Assembly: GCA_003697105.1 (NCBI GenBank)
Contig: RFFQ01000153.1
Span: 1 to 8,078, forward strand
DNA from: Gemmatimonadota bacterium
GTDB lineage: Bacteria > 4572-55 > J002
Direction: 5' to 3'
DNA length: 8,078 bases
A model generated the notes under the pieces. It ran no database searches. It saw only the letters and a list, made by a program, of their open reading frames with translations, and was not told the origin of the DNA. Positions 988-8,028 of the stretch are shown piece by piece. The stretch's first letter is position 1; each line of letters starts with the position of its first letter. Position numbers and translations under genes: made by a program.

Positions 988-3447
988 TTATTTGAGCAAT
1001 ACCATTGGTCGCGTTTCGGTAAACTCTCCGGCATCAAGGTGATAGAGATATACTCCTGATGGAACGGGTGTTCCGGCACTGTTCGTCCCGTTCCATTCCA
1101 CCGCATAGTGATCTGCCGCTTGCGGCTGATCGACTAAAACCCGGATCAACTGCCCCTTGAGGCTGTAAATCGATAGTGTGGCGTGAGTTTCCACCGGTAA
1201 CGTGTAGCGGATAGTCGTTTTGGGGTTAAACGGATTGGGGTAATTTTGGAGTAATGTGTAATGTTGAGGCGTCGTTTCCACTGCCGGCAGTTCAACCCCT
1301 TTGGGATCGGCAAGTTTGATGTTGTCTATCTCCACGAGCGCGGTTCCAGACTGCTTCACGTAAAATTCCAACGTGGCAATCACGCCGCCGCCGGTAACGG
1401 CGCCGCCCGCGCCGTAACTGAATGCCGCATAGCGGGTTTGTCCTGCCTCAATGGTCGCCTCAATATCTGCCACATACCGTCCAGATTTCCCCAGAAAGCC
1501 GCGTTGCTCAATCTGCCGGAGTTCCAGTTGTTCCGGGGCGTAGCGCACATCAAACTGGTACGCGCCCAGACCTTCCGCATAGCTCACATTATCAACCTGT
1601 ACATCAATTGCCAGTACCTCTCCGGCAGAGACCGACCGGTTATAATTTGCCAAACTGACTTGAATCTCATGAACGCCGGTGGGCGTACCGGTGGAGGGTA
1701 TTTCTTCCGGGAAGGGGCTGGTTTCACCCCAGTGAGATGCAATGATCTGTAAATCCAGCACATCGATACAGCCATTTTCATCAAAATCATATGCCGGAAC
1801 GTACCCGACCTCACCGGAACAGGTATTCCAGCGATCCGCAACCAACTGAATATCGAGCGCGTCCACTTCACCGTCATTATCGGGATCGAACGGATAGGGT
1901 TGCTCCACAATCGAGACGCTACCGTTGGCAATCCGCGTGGGGATACTCACCCCGTGAATATTACCCACCTGCACATTATCAAAGGTGATGTTTGCCGTGC
2001 CCATTCCTAAACTTGTCCAGTAGATGACACCCAAAATGCCGGCGCCGCTGGGTCCGGCATTATCGCCGTAGCTGTATGCGCCAAAGTCCAATCGACCGGC
2101 GGTATTATCCACAACCGGTCCCAGTGGGGAGACGGTACGTCCGGTACTGCCTAGAAAATCACCCAATTCGACCGAATCGACCTGCACGAGTGCCGCATTA
2201 AAGGTTACATCCAGATCGAAGGCACCTAAATTGTTGACATCATCAATCACAATATGGGTCACAAAGGGCATCCCCTCCGATGTTTGTTGCCAACTGGGAT
2301 CGACTCGAACGACGGTATTCGTGGGTTGTCCCACATTAAACCGGTAGGTATTGTTGGGCGCACCGCCCGGATCGGTGGCGCGTTCTCCATCACCGGCAAT
2401 TGCGGCGACATAGTAATCAACGGTGGTGCCCAAAGCTTGTCCCGGAATATCTGCCGTGTACGTTACCGGGTCGGAGCCACCGCCACCGCCACCGCCGCCT
2501 CCTTGTGGCGTGGCGTAAATTCGCATTCCATCCACGTGGCAACCGCTGGTGTTGCACGAGCCATTACTGAACGTACTTATCATGTCAAATGTTTCGCCGT
2601 TGTAGCTTAAACTGGCGGTATAGGGGGGTTGGGGGGTTGGGTCATCATCGTCCACTTCCAGCCAGATGTTGCCATACAGTTGGCTACTCGTCAGGGTGTA
2701 CGTATGTCCGGCGTTGTCTTCAATGGTGATAATCGCTCCCGGAACGACATTCGACCCGTTGAGGTCGTCATAAATTGTGCCACCAAAGGCAAACTCATCT
2801 TCACCGGGACCGCCGTCATAATGGCATGCTCCGCAGTCCTCACCGGGGCGGTGCGATTCATCCTCATCATCGTCCCGCAAGCCCCAATCAAAGCGGGTTT
2901 CATGTACCGGTGGGATGAATGACACGGCGGGGACTTCGGTCATGGCAACTTCGGTAAAATTAACACCGCCATCTATGCTATAAAAGAGGGAGACGGACTC
3001 GACCCCGCTCTCATCTAAGACGGTCGTTTGAACCTCATAAGGACCGTTTTCGTCTTCGGTATCTGGCAATTGAGTGGTGTTGCTGATCAAGGGTCCACCG
3101 GTTGCCCCGGGGAAGGATGCCGGGTCTCCTGGATTTGTCACCTCTGCCGGATTGCCCGGATCGGGGTCACCAATTGACCACGTGCCGGTGGAATCTTGCA
3201 ATTCCACACCGTTGGAGTAGCCATCATTGTCAGAATCAATGGCGGCGAGTACCGCATCCCAAAGATGGTTGTTCGCGGCAAAATCATCGGCAAAGGGGGT
3301 ATGGGTGCCCCCTTGTTGGGTCGCGTGGCAGGAGAGGCACATATCAACTGCGCCATTGGGGATTTGATTTTCATAGCCGGGCAGTGCCCAGACCACTAGA
3401 GGGGCGCAAATAAAAAGAATACCGAGTAAAATCAACTGCTTATACAT
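988..3447 (-). CDS. Secreted haem-motif protein with cohesin-dockerin-cohesin block and T9SS sorting domain
   Basis: The product is 819 residues from an ATG with GGAGG seven bases upstream. A longer TTG start at 3498 has no such support and would bury the signal peptide. Modules in order: signal peptide 1-21 (MYKQLILLGILFICAPLVVWA); temptin-like segment about 22-113, with IPNG, haem-type CLSCH at 37-41 and a calcium-type DSDNDGYSNG at 71; an Ig-like domain starting near 117; an insert at about 172-327 holding CGACH (205-209), a carboxypeptidase-regulatory-like beta module, CNTSGCH (298-304) and nine glycines (316-324); return of the Ig-like domain to about 373; cohesin-like module 377-513; dockerin 520-573 with two calcium loops (DPDNDGEVDALD and DFDENGCIDVLD); second cohesin-like module 593-724; and a C-terminal domain 729-819 starting near NYPNPFNP, as in type IX (Por) sorting signals. 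It is therefore expected to cross the outer membrane and become surface-attached or released. Covalent c-type haem binding is predicted from the motifs only. Its position just behind the sigma-54 activator gene suggests control by it, but no sigma-54 promoter was found in the 47-base gap. Confidence 0.9.
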   Translation of the reverse strand: MYKQLILLGILFICAPLVVWALPGYENQIPNGAVDMCLSCHATQQGGTHTPFADDFAANNHLWDAVLAAIDSDNDGYSNGVELQDSTGTWSIGDPDPGNPAEVTNPGDPASFPGATGGPLISNTTQLPDTEDENGPYEVQTTVLDESGVESVSLFYSIDGGVNFTEVAMTEVPAVSFIPPVHETRFDWGLRDDDEDESHRPGEDCGACHYDGGPGEDEFAFGGTIYDDLNGSNVVPGAIITIEDNAGHTYTLTSSQLYGNIWLEVDDDDPTPQPPYTASLSYNGETFDMISTFSNGSCNTSGCHVDGMRIYATPQGGGGGGGGGSDPVTYTADIPGQALGTTVDYYVAAIAGDGERATDPGGAPNNTYRFNVGQPTNTVVRVDPSWQQTSEGMPFVTHIVIDDVNNLGAFDLDVTFNAALVQVDSVELGDFLGSTGRTVSPLGPVVDNTAGRLDFGAYSYGDNAGPSGAGILGVIYWTSLGMGTANITFDNVQVGNIHGVSIPTRIANGSVSIVEQPYPFDPDNDGEVDALDIQLVADRWNTCSGEVGYVPAYDFDENGCIDVLDLQIIASHWGETSPFPEEIPSTGTPTGVHEIQVSLANYNRSVSAGEVLAIDVQVDNVSYAEGLGAYQFDVRYAPEQLELRQIEQRGFLGKSGRYVADIEATIEAGQTRYAAFSYGAGGAVTGGGVIATLEFYVKQSGTALVEIDNIKLADPKGVELPAVETTPQHYTLLQNYPNPFNPKTTIRYTLPVETHATLSIYSLKGQLIRVLVDQPQAADHYAVEWNGTNSAGTPVPSGVYLYHLDAGEFTETRPMVLLK
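2476..2502 (-). repeat. Glycine-codon triplet repeat encoding nine glycines
   Basis: Nine consecutive glycine codons (mostly GGC and GGT alternating on the minus strand) encode residues 316-324 of the cohesin-dockerin protein. The tract lies between the last haem-type motif and the resuming Ig-like domain, so it looks like a flexible hinge. Triplet repeats of this kind can change length in whole codons without breaking the frame. Confidence 0.85.
2623..2641 (+). repeat. G-tract tandem repeat inside the cohesin-dockerin gene
   Basis: The plus strand carries two copies of GGGGGGTT followed by GGG. This is the template strand of the gene. The minus strand encodes a proline-rich linker (residues around DPTPQPPY) after an acidic run. 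Each six-base G homopolymer is a possible slippage site that would cause a frameshift. Confidence 0.7.
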
Positions 3448-3477: not shown

Positions 3478-3495
3478 AACCGGTAGTTTCCGGTT
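3478..3495. repeat. Inverted repeat at the end of the response regulator gene
   Basis: AACCGG and CCGGTT form a perfect six-base stem around a six-base loop. The repeat reaches the stop codon of the response regulator gene (3495-3497) and lies in the 47-base gap before the next gene. A T-run is lacking (TCTCTC follows in the transcribed direction), so a terminator is unlikely. It could affect mRNA processing or be a weak attenuator. Confidence 0.45.
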
Positions 3496-4889
3496 CAATC
3501 GGTTTCCGTTTCATCATCGCTGATGAGACCGTACTTTTTTAATTTGTAGTGCAAATGACTGCGGCTAACCCCCAGCAACCGCGCGGCTTGCGCCTGTACG
3601 TCTTTTGATGTTGCTAATGCTTTAGCAATAATCTGTTTTTCGATGTCTTCGATGAGTTCGGGTAAGGTTTCGCCGTTTTCCAAGCGGCGCAAATAATTCT
3701 CACTATCGGTTGGTTCGCTATTCATCTTTTCGAAGGTTTCGGGCAAGGCGGTGGGGGTAATGGTTTCGGTGGGGGAGAGTACGACGGCGCGTTCGATCAC
3801 ATTTTGCAATTCCCGAATATTGCCGGGCCAGGAATAGTGTGTGAGCAGGCGGTAGGTTTCGGCACTGAGGACGGTCTGTTTGTTTAGTTGGCGGTTGTAC
3901 TGTTCCAAAAAGTGTTGTGCCAATAAAGGGATGTCATCTTTACGTTCTGCCAAAGGGGGTAGATGGATCTGCACCACGCTCAGGCGGTAGTACAAATCTT
4001 GCCGGAATTTGCCGGTGTCCATCAGCTGTTGTAGATTTTGATTGGTGGCGGCAATGATCCGCACGTCCACTTTGATGGGTGAGATGCCGCCAACCCGCTC
4101 AAATTCCTGCTCCTGCAATGCCCGTAGAATTTTAGCTTGTAAGCTGAGTTGCATATCGCCGATCTCATCTAAAAAGAGGGTGCCCCCGTTGGCGAGTTCA
4201 AATTTTCCCTTTTTTTGCTGGTGGGCGCCGGTGAAAGCTCCTTTTTCATAGCCGAACAACTCGCTTTCCAGTAGATCGTGGGGGATGGCGGCACAGTTGA
4301 TCTTAACAAAGGGCTGGTGAGCCCGGTCGCTGAGTCCGTGAATCGCTTTGGCAATCAGTTCTTTGCCGGTGCCGCTTTCTCCTAAAATCAGAACCGTTGT
4401 GGGCGTAGGCGCCACCTGCCGGACGATTTCAAAAATATGTTGCATCTTGCTGTTCCGGCTGATGATATTCCGAAATTCATATTGTTGCCGGACTTCCTCC
4501 CGTAATTGGCGGTTTTCCCGCCGCAGGTCATAGACCTCCAGCGCTTTGGCGACGGTAGATTTGATCTGGTTGACTTCAAATGGTTTGGTGATATAGTCAA
4601 ACGCACCCTGGCGCATTGCCTCAACGGCACTTTCAATCGAACCATGCGCCGTAATGAGTACAACCGGAACATCTGGGGCGATCTGCTTGATTTCGCTCAT
4701 TAACTGCATCCCATCCATGTTGGACATGCGAATATCACTGATGACCAGATGGCATTCGATTAATTTGAAGGTTTCCAAAGCAGTCAACCCATCTGTGGCG
4801 GTGCGGATGGTGTGCCCTTCTTCCTCTAGCATCATCCGCAAGACGGTCAGCATATTTTTTTTGTTATCGACAATCAGGATATGCGCCAT
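3495..4889 (-). CDS. NtrC-family sigma-54-dependent response regulator
   Basis: The product is 464 residues with the full three-domain layout of NtrC/PilR-type activators. The receiver domain (1 to about 117) has the phospho-acceptor Asp52 in VISDIRMS, Thr80 in VLITAHGS and Lys102 in YITKPF. The acidic pocket reads Asp8-Asn9 in place of two acidic residues. The central AAA+ domain carries Walker A GESGTGKE (170-177), the sigma-54 contact loop GAFTGA (217-222), Walker B TLFLDE (237-242), FRQDLYYRL (295-303) and SWPGNIREL (353-361). The C-terminal Fis-type helix-turn-helix spans about 419-455 (AARLLGVSRSHLHYKLKKYGL). The intact GAFTGA and Walker motifs indicate a working ATPase that remodels sigma-54 RNA polymerase. 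The ATG at 4887-4889 is chosen because it begins the receiver strand (MAHILIVD) and has GGAG upstream; a TTG at 4991 would add 34 residues with no domain match. The partner is almost certainly the upstream histidine kinase. The targets are unknown, and the flanking surface-protein genes are the obvious candidates. Confidence 0.96.
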   Translation of the reverse strand: MAHILIVDNKKNMLTVLRMMLEEEGHTIRTATDGLTALETFKLIECHLVISDIRMSNMDGMQLMSEIKQIAPDVPVVLITAHGSIESAVEAMRQGAFDYITKPFEVNQIKSTVAKALEVYDLRRENRQLREEVRQQYEFRNIISRNSKMQHIFEIVRQVAPTPTTVLILGESGTGKELIAKAIHGLSDRAHQPFVKINCAAIPHDLLESELFGYEKGAFTGAHQQKKGKFELANGGTLFLDEIGDMQLSLQAKILRALQEQEFERVGGISPIKVDVRIIAATNQNLQQLMDTGKFRQDLYYRLSVVQIHLPPLAERKDDIPLLAQHFLEQYNRQLNKQTVLSAETYRLLTHYSWPGNIRELQNVIERAVVLSPTETITPTALPETFEKMNSEPTDSENYLRRLENGETLPELIEDIEKQIIAKALATSKDVQAQAARLLGVSRSHLHYKLKKYGLISDDETETD

Positions 4890-4890
4890 A

Positions 4891-4913
4891 TCCAACTCCG
4901 GGAATCCGTTGGA
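4891..4913 (-). promoter_or_regulatory. Ribosome binding region of the response regulator gene with possible hairpin
   Basis: GGAG (4896-4899, minus strand) lies six bases before the ATG and is the likely Shine-Dalgarno site. TCCAAC and GTTGGA form a perfect six-base stem with an 11-base loop. The 3' arm covers the spacer between the site and the start codon. In the mRNA this could partly hide the ribosome site. The ribosome binding site is well supported; the hairpin's function is speculative. Confidence 0.55.
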
Positions 4914-4955
4914 GTTCCAAAATCTGAAGGGTGAGTAACTTCGGTTTAGAGTCCT

Positions 4956-4979
4956 GGGGTCAAGACACCTTGTGACCCC
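4956..4979. repeat. Inverted repeat in the leader of the response regulator gene
   Basis: GGGGTCA and TGACCCC form a perfect seven-base stem with a ten-base loop, 66 bases before the response regulator start. The loop can add an inner CAAG/CTTG pairing. No T-run follows in the transcribed direction, so it is not a standard terminator. It may be an operator, a leader-RNA hairpin or an mRNA-processing site. Confidence 0.5.
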
Positions 4980-4986
4980 GACGTCT

Positions 4987-5030
4987 GTCAAAAAATTTGA
5001 AATCGATTCCAGTTTGCGTCAAAGAATTTG
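4987..5030. repeat. Pair of 13-base direct repeats with dyad symmetry between kinase and regulator genes
   Basis: GTCAAAAAATTTG (4987-4999) and GTCAAAGAATTTG (5018-5030) differ at one base and start 31 bases apart, close to three DNA helical turns. Each has a dyad of the form TCAAA-N3-TTTGA or TTTGT. Paired, helically phased dyads upstream of a regulator gene are typical of binding sites for dimeric activators, so autoregulation is plausible. The sites are AT-rich, which raises the chance of coincidence. Confidence 0.5.
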
Positions 5031-5042
5031 TACGCGGTGAGC

Positions 5043-6317
5043 TTAGTCCGAATGGGTGGAAACGGTGTCCGACACGGGTGAATCCTCGATATTACCATCC
5101 TCCGTTATATCACGGATAGGCAGTACTATTGTAAAAACCGTGCCATTTCCGAGTTCGCTATCCACCAGAATTCGCCCGCCGTGCTCTGAGATGATGTTGG
5201 CGGCAATGGCTAACCCCAGCCCGGTGCCTTCATCTTTCGTGGTAAAAAAGGGTTCAAACAGCATGGAAAGGTTTTTACGCGGGATGCCCAGACCGGTATC
5301 AATAAACGCAATTTCGATGCGATGTGTGATATGGCGGGTTTTTAGGGTCAACTGGCCGCCATGGGGCATGGCTTGTATCGCGTTCAGAAAGAGATTTAAA
5401 AAGACCTGATGTAATGCGTTGCGGTCAACGGCGGTCAAGGGTAAATGGGGGTCGTATGTTTCGATGACGTTCACATGTGGCGGCAGAGTTTCCTGAGCTA
5501 AATTGACCACTTGATGGAGTATCTCGTTGATGTCTCGCTGTTCCAATTGCAGTTTTACTGGGCGGGAATATCGCAAGAAGTCGTTAATAAATTCGTTTAA
5601 ACGGCTGGCTTCCTCCTGAATCGCCGCCGTGAGTACCCGGCAACGGAGGTTTTCAAGTTCCATGCTTTGGATAAGATCGGTTGAGCTTTTGATGATACTC
5701 AGTGGGTTACGGATTTCATGGGCAATCCCCGCCGAAAGCCGCCCAATCGCTGCCATCTTCTCTTGCCGGGAGATTTCCGTCCGTGCCCGTTGTAACTCTG
5801 TATTTTGGGCTTCCAATGAGGCTATCATTTTCGCCGTCTGGATTTTTTCCCGGCGGTACTCCCGTCCCATAAAATAGACCACCAAGCCGATCACAAAAAA
5901 GAGGATTATCTTTGAGACCGTCTCAAAAATCTCATGATCGAAGACGGTCAATTCGTGGGCTTGCGGCGAAAAAATCAAGGTACTGCCAAATCCAATTGAT
6001 GCCAACGTGCAGACCAGAATAACCCCCTTGAGATGCTGTTCTGCCGCGATGATGATGATCGGAATGGTATAGAGCGGAAAAAACGCGCTTTCGTAAGCTC
6101 CGGTGGTGTAAACAAGCGTGGTCGTGAGGATGATGTTGGTCAGAGAGTCAATCAGATGTTTTTCTTTTAGATGCTGGCTGGCAAGATATTGTAGCAAGAT
6201 TGCCCCGAAAAATGCGCCGTAAACGTAAAGACGGGCATTGCCCGCATCGCCAAATAGCAGAAAGAACACCAGAGCGGCAACGGCAGTAAGGACATTAATT
6301 TGATCGAATAGTTTCAT
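5043..6317 (-). CDS. Six-transmembrane PilS-like sensor histidine kinase
   Basis: The product is 424 residues. Six hydrophobic segments fill the first 150 residues (about 7-23, 31-46, 57-74, 79-92, 97-116 and 133-150), with almost no periplasmic domain. The pattern, including YTTGAYESAFFPLY, resembles the membrane part of PilS. A charged coiled-coil linker (about 151-186) leads directly into the HisKA domain, with phospho-acceptor His200 in AGIAHEIRNPL. The ATPase domain has the N box around Asn312 (NLFLNAIQAM), G1 DTGLGIP (340-346), the F box FEPFFTTK (354-361) and G2 GTGLGLA (364-370). All key catalytic residues are present. No PAS domain is visible between membrane and HisKA, unlike typical PilS. 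The signal is probably sensed in or at the membrane. It autophosphorylates and should transfer phosphate to Asp52 of the NtrC-type regulator encoded next. The upstream Shine-Dalgarno sequence is weak; the ATG is chosen because the first membrane segment follows closely. Confidence 0.95.
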   Translation of the reverse strand: MKLFDQINVLTAVAALVFFLLFGDAGNARLYVYGAFFGAILLQYLASQHLKEKHLIDSLTNIILTTTLVYTTGAYESAFFPLYTIPIIIIAAEQHLKGVILVCTLASIGFGSTLIFSPQAHELTVFDHEIFETVSKIILFFVIGLVVYFMGREYRREKIQTAKMIASLEAQNTELQRARTEISRQEKMAAIGRLSAGIAHEIRNPLSIIKSSTDLIQSMELENLRCRVLTAAIQEEASRLNEFINDFLRYSRPVKLQLEQRDINEILHQVVNLAQETLPPHVNVIETYDPHLPLTAVDRNALHQVFLNLFLNAIQAMPHGGQLTLKTRHITHRIEIAFIDTGLGIPRKNLSMLFEPFFTTKDEGTGLGLAIAANIISEHGGRILVDSELGNGTVFTIVLPIRDITEDGNIEDSPVSDTVSTHSD

Positions 6318-6393: not shown

Positions 6394-8028
6394 TTACCAA
6401 CGGTAACCTACAGAAAGCCAGAGGTGATGCCCTTGGCGCAGGTCGCCGGTTTGATAGAAATACTGCCCTTGTAGCGTTATGTTTTGAGGTTTCCATAAAT
6501 AAGACCCGTACCACCGCAATTCTTGCTGGTTGAGGGTGCGACTCATTTCGTGGGATTGATTGTAGTGCTCTAACCGCACGGTAACACCTGCCGATCCCCA
6601 CTCAAATGTACGGTACAGATCAACGGAAGGCGCATGACCCTTTAGAAAGCGGTTATCGGCGTATTGGTAGCGCACTGTCAGAATCGATTGGGCATCCCAC
6701 AGGGAATTGACCCGTAGGTAGTGAGACACGGAAAATGCCGGTTTTGTCTGCCCCGTTTGAACCCGCCAGCCAATGGATGTGCCGGTCTTCAACGAGGGGG
6801 AGAGTTTCCAGTCTCCACCCCCACGAAACCCCTGTTGTTGCGCGTTAAAAAAGAGGCTATCGGGAATATCTCGATTTTCGGTCTGCCGCACGTTTTCCGA
6901 GTGGGTATAGGCGGCAGAAATATGCATATTGGCGTGTACTTGATAGCGGATCGAAAGATTAAACCGGCTCAGTTGCAGTTGACCCGCGCCGGTATTCGCT
7001 TTCCAGCCACGATTGAGATCGACTTCTGCTTGTTGGTAAACGGATAACCGGCGGTGTTCCCAGTAGTTTGCTTGCAGATACAGCACCTCCCGGCTAACTT
7101 CACCTTGGATATATTGCCCCACTACGCCCACAGTTGCCTTGTATTTACGGGAGCGATAATCGCCGCGATCCAGATAGAGATACCCTCCATATTTTTGCTG
7201 GTCCGGATTCGGCTCCGAACGGGTTAAATCCGGTTGAAATCCACCTAAAACACCAATGCCCCAACCCGTGGCATGATAGACCGCTTCCATGCCATCCCAA
7301 CTGCCGCCGCCCCGCATGTAATCAGAATAAATCCGCCCGAAATGGAGGGTGTACGACGACGGTTGGTAACTCAGTTCCGCATAGTAGAACCGGTTTCGCC
7401 ATTCTGTCTCGCGGACCGCGGCGCTAATATTCCGGCGGCGCATTTGGTAGCGGCTGCGGGCTTTCAAGCGGAAATGGAGCGGCATACCCCCCAAATTTTC
7501 CACTTTATACGTGATTCTAAATTGGGGTTGGTAAAAATCTTCGCCAAATTTAGACTGATCCTGAAATGCTTCCACTCCCACTTCCGCGCGTCCCCGAATC
7601 GTTGTGTTGAGTTGATCCGCCGGGGGTGGGGGTGGGAGGAGTTCCGGTCGAGTTTGGGATTCGGAGGGGCTGGAGCGAACTTTAGGGAGCATTTCGGGTG
7701 CTCCGGCTTGCTTTGTGTGGGGGGTGAATCGCACTTCGTCTGCTACTTGCAAATTTGTTGTTTGGGATTCCACTTCACAAGCGGCTGAATGTGGTGCGAC
7801 ATGACGTACCCGCAGGATGGCGACTGGTGTTCCATTCCGCCAGACCTGCACCCGGTCGTCTATTTCTATTCCGGCGGCTTTGCCCTGATCGATGTAAACC
7901 ATGCCGGCAGCGATGTACTTAATTTTAGCCGTGCCTTGTGCTTGTGCGGTCCCAATTATCAGCAGAATAAACCATAATACAGCAAAAAATAAATTGTGCA
8001 GGTAGTTAATTCGATCTCTTTTTGTCAT
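6394..8028 (-). CDS. Outer-membrane beta-barrel protein with N-terminal SH3-like domain
   Basis: The product is 544 residues. Residues 1-30 form a signal peptide (basic start, hydrophobic core around FFAVLWFILLIIG, then AQA). Residues 33 to about 101 look like a small SH3-like beta domain of the FlgT C-terminal type (MVYIDQGKAAGIEIDDRVQVW, VADEVRF). A proline-rich linker with five prolines follows (132-136). From about residue 144 to the end, alternating aromatic/polar strands such as FYYAELSYQPSSYTLHFGRIYSDY indicate a transmembrane barrel of roughly 16-20 strands (estimated from length). The last residues, VGYRW, end in an aromatic residue as expected for Bam-dependent insertion. The ATG at 8026-8028 is chosen because the signal peptide starts there. 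It is the first gene of the five and lies 76 bases before the kinase gene. The substrate or partner is unknown: it could be a porin, a secretion pore or an anchor for a surface complex. No specific family is recognised. Confidence 0.85.
   Translation of the reverse strand: MTKRDRINYLHNLFFAVLWFILLIIGTAQAQGTAKIKYIAAGMVYIDQGKAAGIEIDDRVQVWRNGTPVAILRVRHVAPHSAACEVESQTTNLQVADEVRFTPHTKQAGAPEMLPKVRSSPSESQTRPELLPPPPPADQLNTTIRGRAEVGVEAFQDQSKFGEDFYQPQFRITYKVENLGGMPLHFRLKARSRYQMRRRNISAAVRETEWRNRFYYAELSYQPSSYTLHFGRIYSDYMRGGGSWDGMEAVYHATGWGIGVLGGFQPDLTRSEPNPDQQKYGGYLYLDRGDYRSRKYKATVGVVGQYIQGEVSREVLYLQANYWEHRRLSVYQQAEVDLNRGWKANTGAGQLQLSRFNLSIRYQVHANMHISAAYTHSENVRQTENRDIPDSLFFNAQQQGFRGGGDWKLSPSLKTGTSIGWRVQTGQTKPAFSVSHYLRVNSLWDAQSILTVRYQYADNRFLKGHAPSVDLYRTFEWGSAGVTVRLEHYNQSHEMSRTLNQQELRWYGSYLWKPQNITLQGQYFYQTGDLRQGHHLWLSVGYRW

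Follow-up and report, generated by a model that had tools for sequence, protein, structure and literature searches.

The window analysed here, meaning the whole stretch of 8,078 nucleotides, is an entire contig (C31) of a 4.18-Mb genome that is 96.9% complete and belongs to a phylum for which the collection searched contains just two genomes. All genes and protein features of the window described below lie on the minus strand. The gene of interest is an open reading frame at positions 991 to 3,447 that encodes a protein of 819 residues, P0001. It starts with ATG, directly preceded by a GGAGG Shine-Dalgarno sequence, and specifies in order a signal peptide, a temptin-like haem module, an Ig-like domain split by an insert, a first cohesin, a dockerin, a second cohesin and a type IX secretion system (T9SS) tail. 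Pfam matches to P0001 comprise Temptin_C, Cohesin and Dockerin_1, plus FlgD_ig across the tail. A first-pass annotation of this DNA had described a cohesin-dockerin-cohesin block at positions 1,276 to 2,319, which correspond to residues 377-724 of the ATG-start reading frame. The block, whose module identities are backed by Pfam, a window-free cohesin profile, paralogy and the fold of cohesin 2, occupies residues 374-726, and the further statement that haem motifs and a T9SS signal share the chain with the cohesins and the dockerin was borne out by the motifs themselves and by a TIGR04183 match above its cut-off.

Directly upstream of the P0001 gene, on the same strand and possibly co-transcribed with it, are a histidine kinase and a sigma-54 response regulator (3,495 to 6,317). 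The short gap between the regulator gene and the P0001 gene holds a perfect inverted repeat, AACCGG-N6-CCGGTT (3,478 to 3,495), which has a single exact copy in the window and, with up to two mismatches allowed, three matches against 0.55 expected. Matches to a sigma-54 promoter for the P0001 gene occurred at chance level, with none upstream of the gene. At 6,394 to 8,028 lies a gene for a 544-residue protein with a signal peptide and an apparent outer-membrane beta-barrel, for which no match was found in Pfam, NCBIfam or PHROG, while at 3 to 932 the contig end truncates the gene for a lamin-tail-domain protein, of which the beginning, with an ASH-like Ig domain, is left.

Haem-motif modules and the export signal

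The N-terminal signal peptide (residues 1-22; 3,382 to 3,447) was read from the sequence as a hydrophobic stretch. It is followed by a Temptin_C-like module (residues 21-107; 3,127 to 3,387; PF24784, E 2.4e-13) that contains the motif CLSCH (residues 37-41; 3,325 to 3,339). This module is the sole one of its kind in the genome, and its relatives in other genomes also bear CxxCH. The remaining haem motifs, CGACH (residues 205-209; 2,821 to 2,835) and the CX3CH-type CNTSGCH (residues 298-304; 2,536 to 2,556), are found within an insert at about residues 173-325 (2,473 to 2,931), which ends in a run of nine glycines (2,476 to 2,502) immediately before the Ig-like domain resumes. The insert is homologous to a lipoprotein-like stand-alone protein encoded on contig C186 of the same genome (BLASTP 3e-8), and genomes G064, G205, G247 and G335 encode further stand-alone homologues that share its CxxCH...Cx2-3CH pattern, several of them with CX3CH. 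The Ig-like domain that it splits (about residues 117-172 and 326-374; 2,326 to 3,099) is continuous in genome G001 (contig C51). Because the insert resembles stand-alone proteins and its host domain is uninterrupted elsewhere, P0001 is, by sequence comparison, a mosaic protein. When 386 genomes were searched with the haem half, the temptin-like and insert modules were recovered separately, and no second protein matching across both haem modules was found among the matches read; a further match, of 905 residues, lies in G208.

P0001 combines three CX2-3CH motifs with a secretion signal in a genome that encodes cytochrome c maturation, with three matches to the cytochrome c assembly family PF01578, and thus has the attributes of a c-type cytochrome; from this sequence-level evidence we infer that it carries covalent haem. 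A cytochrome c assembly match at G000:C83:11463-12044 has internal TGA and TAG codons and is perhaps a decayed gene or the product of sequence errors. A search for MtrB/PioB-type porins gave no match anywhere, the controls included, and so carries no weight. Of about 30 further proteins of this genome with a cohesin or dockerin that were looked at, none had a CxxCH-type motif.

At the opposite end of the chain, residues 736-819 (991 to 1,242) form a T9SS type A C-terminal sorting domain, which scores 32.1 bits against the TIGR04183 cut-off of 23. The genome also encodes SprA (508.6 bits over the frame), so that sorting domain and secretion system occur together, as for T9SS type A cargo. P0001 resembles such cargo in its signal peptide, its NYPNPFNP...SGVYxY C-terminal sorting domain and its modular Ig-like middle, whereas most type A cargo lacks a cohesin-dockerin stalk. 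T9SS tails are normally cleaved, after which the protein is fixed through its new C-terminus; cohesin 2 would therefore lie closest to the cell and the haem modules outermost.

Cohesins and dockerin of P0001

The two modules that flank the dockerin differ in how readily they are recognized. The Pfam cohesin family PF00963 matches P0001 with an E value of 3.8e-13 (best stretch 605-709; 50.3 bits for the whole protein against a cut-off of 24.1), and cohesin 2 (residues 593-724; 1,276 to 1,671) scores above this curated cut-off. Cohesin 1 (residues 372-513; 1,909 to 2,334), taken alone as a single stretch, reaches 18.5 bits (E 0.0045) and so misses this cut-off, and the family assignment proposed for both flanking modules was thus upheld by Pfam for cohesin 2 and not for cohesin 1 alone. 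The window-free cohesin profile nevertheless matches cohesin 1 at 8.8e-10 in a search space of 1000 decoys, the best shuffled decoy giving 0.36. The earlier suggestion that the modules are paralogous copies proved well founded: they share 27% identity, 24 s.d. above shuffles, and a tree of 41 cohesins unites them with support of 97/85. Both also have the landmarks FLG-x-S/T-GR and (F/Y)SYG, as had been described, and these landmarks partly recur in cohesins of unrelated genomes (e.g. G321 and G272). By these sequence comparisons cohesin 1 is a true cohesin despite its sub-cut-off Pfam score, and the profile match, the paralogy and the tree grouping together indicate that the two modules probably arose by duplication inside P0001.

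An AF2 model of cohesin 2, for which the alignment consisted of cohesin 1 only, had a pLDDT of 70 and a pTM of 0.67. When this model was compared with the PDB using Foldseek, the best 50 matches were all cohesins (best E 2.6e-5, TM about 0.57), and in VIA-align, with Z up to 11.2 and an rmsd of 3.0 A across 119 residues, the top 42 entries were cohesins only, the leading ones mostly of type II. As modelled, cohesin 2 has the jelly-roll cohesin fold, an assignment that applies to this module only: the single-sequence AF2 model of the whole block had a pLDDT of 41.9 and unusable geometry, that of cohesin 1 included. A four-sequence profile (A3) of such terminal cohesins matched cellulosomal cohesins in the PDB at 4.7e-8, and cohesin 1 alone had no match among PDB sequences. 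Chance resemblance of the modules to cohesins was considered and is ruled out by the paralogy and profile scores, Foldseek and VIA-align.

The dockerin (residues 520-577; 1,717 to 1,890) matches Dockerin_1 (PF00404) over residues 520-570 with 25.5 bits (cut-off 22.9; E 1.5e-5), and consists of duplicated calcium-loop-helix repeats. Both loops are canonical and lie exactly where they had been noted, DPDNDGEVDALD at residues 521-532 (1,852 to 1,887) and DFDENGCIDVLD at residues 554-565 (1,753 to 1,788). The best PDB match is the type II dockerin of CipA (1.4e-4), and the distance from loop to loop, 33 residues, equals that of CipA when counted along the alignment of this match. The two halves are identical at 9 of 20 positions and hydrophobic at positions 10-11 of each, as expected of a dockerin that binds a partner. 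Within its own genome, this dockerin is closer to terminal dockerins (a score of 107 with that of C103, against a shuffle maximum of 41) than to dockerins in mid-chain positions, where the second loop is in some cases degenerate.

The distance between cohesin 1 and the dockerin is nearly constant among relatives. The gap between the two profiles was 36-41 residues in 13 of 16 cases among relatives fetched with the block, a sample that may be biased since the block itself was the query, while the gap from the dockerin to the next cohesin ranged from 22 to 80 residues in the same set. A bias-free check is provided by Pfam positions in genome G059, fetched by the families alone: in eight adjacent cohesin-dockerin pairs the dockerin starts at cohesin-profile position 141-145, compared with 140 in the window and a profile length of 139. 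The FDAAR-repeat dockerins of the present genome start about 50 residues further along. With a linker so short and nearly constant, cohesin 1 and the dockerin may well form a single rigid bimodule, comparable, in part judging from PDB titles, to the pairing of X-module and dockerin in type II scaffoldins.

Related tails in this and other genomes

Other dockerin proteins, which the first-pass annotation had raised as possible partners, do exist in this genome: dockerin profiles match 31 places at E<=1, 16 of them above the cut-off. Reading frames that bear both a cohesin and a dockerin, called by profile or by eye and with T9SS tails present, were found on contigs C3, C14, C110, C111, C124, C125, C160, C163, C179 and C183, and four, the window included, score above both Pfam cut-offs (PF00963 and PF00404). 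The presence of both partners on one chain, thought exceptional at first, is therefore not so. In addition to these ten or so reading frames, on which we rejected the idea that P0001 is unique in this respect, it is seen in many relatives, is ordinary in adaptor scaffoldins (PMC4959524) and is reported for noncellulosomal proteins of ANME archaea, where a single dockerin is accompanied by as many as five cohesins (PMC9012536).

The full arrangement of cohesin, dockerin, cohesin and T9SS tail was also found in G001, G046, G059, G152, G272 and G321, of which G001 is of the same class and the other five lie outside it. Such tails are carried by unrelated outer parts (cytochrome, cadherin-like, Calx-beta and LRR), and on sequence evidence the cohesin-dockerin T9SS tail is a design of wide occurrence, not a singular self-polymerising wire. 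One case in an unrelated genome (at locus G040, C71:20530-21090) is a 1439-residue reading frame that, like P0001, joins CxxCH motifs (two), a cohesin-dockerin pair and a T9SS tail on one chain; unlike P0001, it has other haem regions, an LRR middle and a single cohesin. As different haem motifs are here joined to the same kind of tail, the combination of haem with such a tail has arisen at least twice.

Several proteins of the genome are candidate partners for P0001. These include multi-cohesin proteins (C16, C157, C160 and C183) and proteins ending in a dockerin, among them an M14 peptidase (C43) and a beta-propeller protein (C103); the annotated subset of dockerin proteins consists of these two and an S8 peptidase (C160). 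The dockerin-terminated candidates lack T9SS tails. A second dockerin-like type, in which ISPFDAAR repeats are followed by GE/DVTGNW, is found on contigs C111, C124, C125, C160, C163, C165, C74, C176, C48 and C140, often after a carboxypeptidase-regulatory-like domain, and co-occurs with a second subfamily of cohesins (GTLTEGW/F). Searches by exact peptides found no close relatives in the genome contig collection or in viral contigs, cohesin scans across viral contigs gave no match, and a scan for distant relatives yielded dockerins and nothing else, all from planctomycetes and an Oscillospiraceae bacterium. The complete 5.0-Mb genome G059, kin only at the domain level, has 96 cohesin places, at least 153 dockerin places and T9SS tails; among the places listed only about ten are adjacent cohesin-dockerin pairs, the majority lying apart. 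In scale this compares with Ruminococcus flavefaciens, which has 222 dockerin proteins (PMC2930009).

Comparison with described systems relates P0001 to two groups of proteins. With cohesins and a dockerin on a single chain it has the make-up of an adaptor scaffoldin, and like CipA, and like ScaB of Acetivibrio cellulolyticus (adaptor and primary scaffoldins of cellulosomes), it has several cohesins and one dockerin, the dockerin being type II-like and the cohesin 2 fold closest to type II cohesins. Unlike those proteins, it has no carbohydrate-binding module or glycoside hydrolase and instead has haem modules and a Gram-negative T9SS tail; the likeness is one of sequence and fold. Its cohesins and dockerin lie outside cellulosomes, as do those of Archaeoglobus ORF2375/2376, ANME archaea, their bacterial partners (PMC10553843) such as Seep-SRB and Hot-Seep1, and the Cloacimonadota (Ca. 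Stygibacter), from which a scaffoldin-like protein with a conserved C-terminal T9SS-type surface-attachment domain has been described (PMC8542988). In contrast to these proteins as described, P0001 joins haem motifs, a cohesin-dockerin-cohesin block and a T9SS tail in one chain, and the literature searched, with partial coverage, for cohesins and dockerins with cytochromes or T9SS held no account of this combination.

Possible roles of the cohesin-dockerin stalk

The reading we tentatively favour is that P0001 is an adaptor-scaffoldin-like surface cytochrome that docks with partners in trans. It would be a T9SS-exported, C-terminally anchored mosaic surface protein, its outer half bearing three c-type haem motifs distributed over two modules independent of each other and its cell-proximal half forming a docking stalk. 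Guided into the periplasm by its signal peptide, it would there receive haem through cytochrome c maturation; the T9SS would then export it, the tail being cleaved and the protein fixed on the surface. Cohesin 1 and the dockerin would act as a rigid bimodule and cohesin 2 as a second, more flexibly joined socket. The dockerin would plug into cohesins of other surface proteins and the cohesins could accept dockerins of other exported proteins, leaving a small cytochrome fixed within a calcium-dependent protein coat. Haem loading, export, anchoring, binding in trans and electron transfer are thus all functions that we infer for P0001. What favours an adaptor role is the pair of canonical, similar calcium loops, the likeness to terminal dockerins and the multi-cohesin and dockerin-terminated proteins of the genome. 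The module identities, the T9SS tail together with SprA, the cytochrome c assembly matches, the nearly fixed spacing and the recurrence of the block in six other genomes also count for it, and the many dockerin-profile places in the genome make recruitment of dockerin proteins by P0001 plausible. What weakens this reading is that the candidates ending in a dockerin have no T9SS tail to take them to the surface.

The fixed spacing of cohesin 1 and the dockerin also fits a purely structural role, and the main rival, a possibility that stands close behind, is that the dockerin packs on cohesin 1 without any partner, the block serving as a spacer of Ig-like and calcium modules that separates the outer modules from the T9SS anchor. 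That this spacing recurs in unrelated genomes, that the tail is joined to unrelated outer parts and that the second calcium loop is often degenerate in sister tails all speak for such a spacer; the two canonical, mutually similar loops of the window dockerin with their hydrophobic recognition positions, and the partner-like proteins of the genome, speak against it. We consider it unlikely that the dockerin binds a cohesin of another P0001 copy to give a head-to-tail or lattice cytochrome polymer, as the first-pass annotation had envisaged. Matching families do occur on one chain, here and in further proteins of the genome, and two cohesins with one dockerin per chain would allow both growth and branching. 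However, same-chain dockerins and cohesins differ in specificity in known adaptor scaffoldins (PMC4959524), the strong Archaeoglobus pair joins the ORF2375 dockerin to the cohesin of a separate protein, ORF2376 (PMC9705933), anchoring of every copy by its C-terminus would limit linear growth, and the nearly fixed spacing argues for cohesin 1 and the dockerin as one unit. Least probable is a clasp within one molecule, in which the dockerin would bind its own cohesin 2 and keep the stalk closed until a competing partner opens it: the Pro/Thr linker of about 16-22 residues between these modules would suit it, but the gap of variable length among relatives argues that no such clasp is conserved.

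Cohesin-dockerin pairing is among the tightest protein interactions known and, to our knowledge, has been studied almost entirely in cellulosomes. The tails described here point to cohesin and dockerin modules as a stalk that recurs at the C-terminus of T9SS surface proteins from several poorly known phyla, and such a stalk, with its fixed spacing, is of wider interest than P0001 alone. It is a long shot that they form a shared plug-and-socket stalk by which many unrelated surface proteins of these phyla, each with both partners, snap into a calcium-dependent lattice over the cell, with small cytochromes such as P0001 evenly mounted in a redox-active, S-layer-like coat. The role of noncellulosomal cohesins, and of the cohesin/dockerin proteins reported from methane-oxidising consortia, thereby becomes directly testable using a few purified domains. 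If the stalks do bind in trans, they would provide a general route to Gram-negative surface assemblies, including ones that hold cytochromes.
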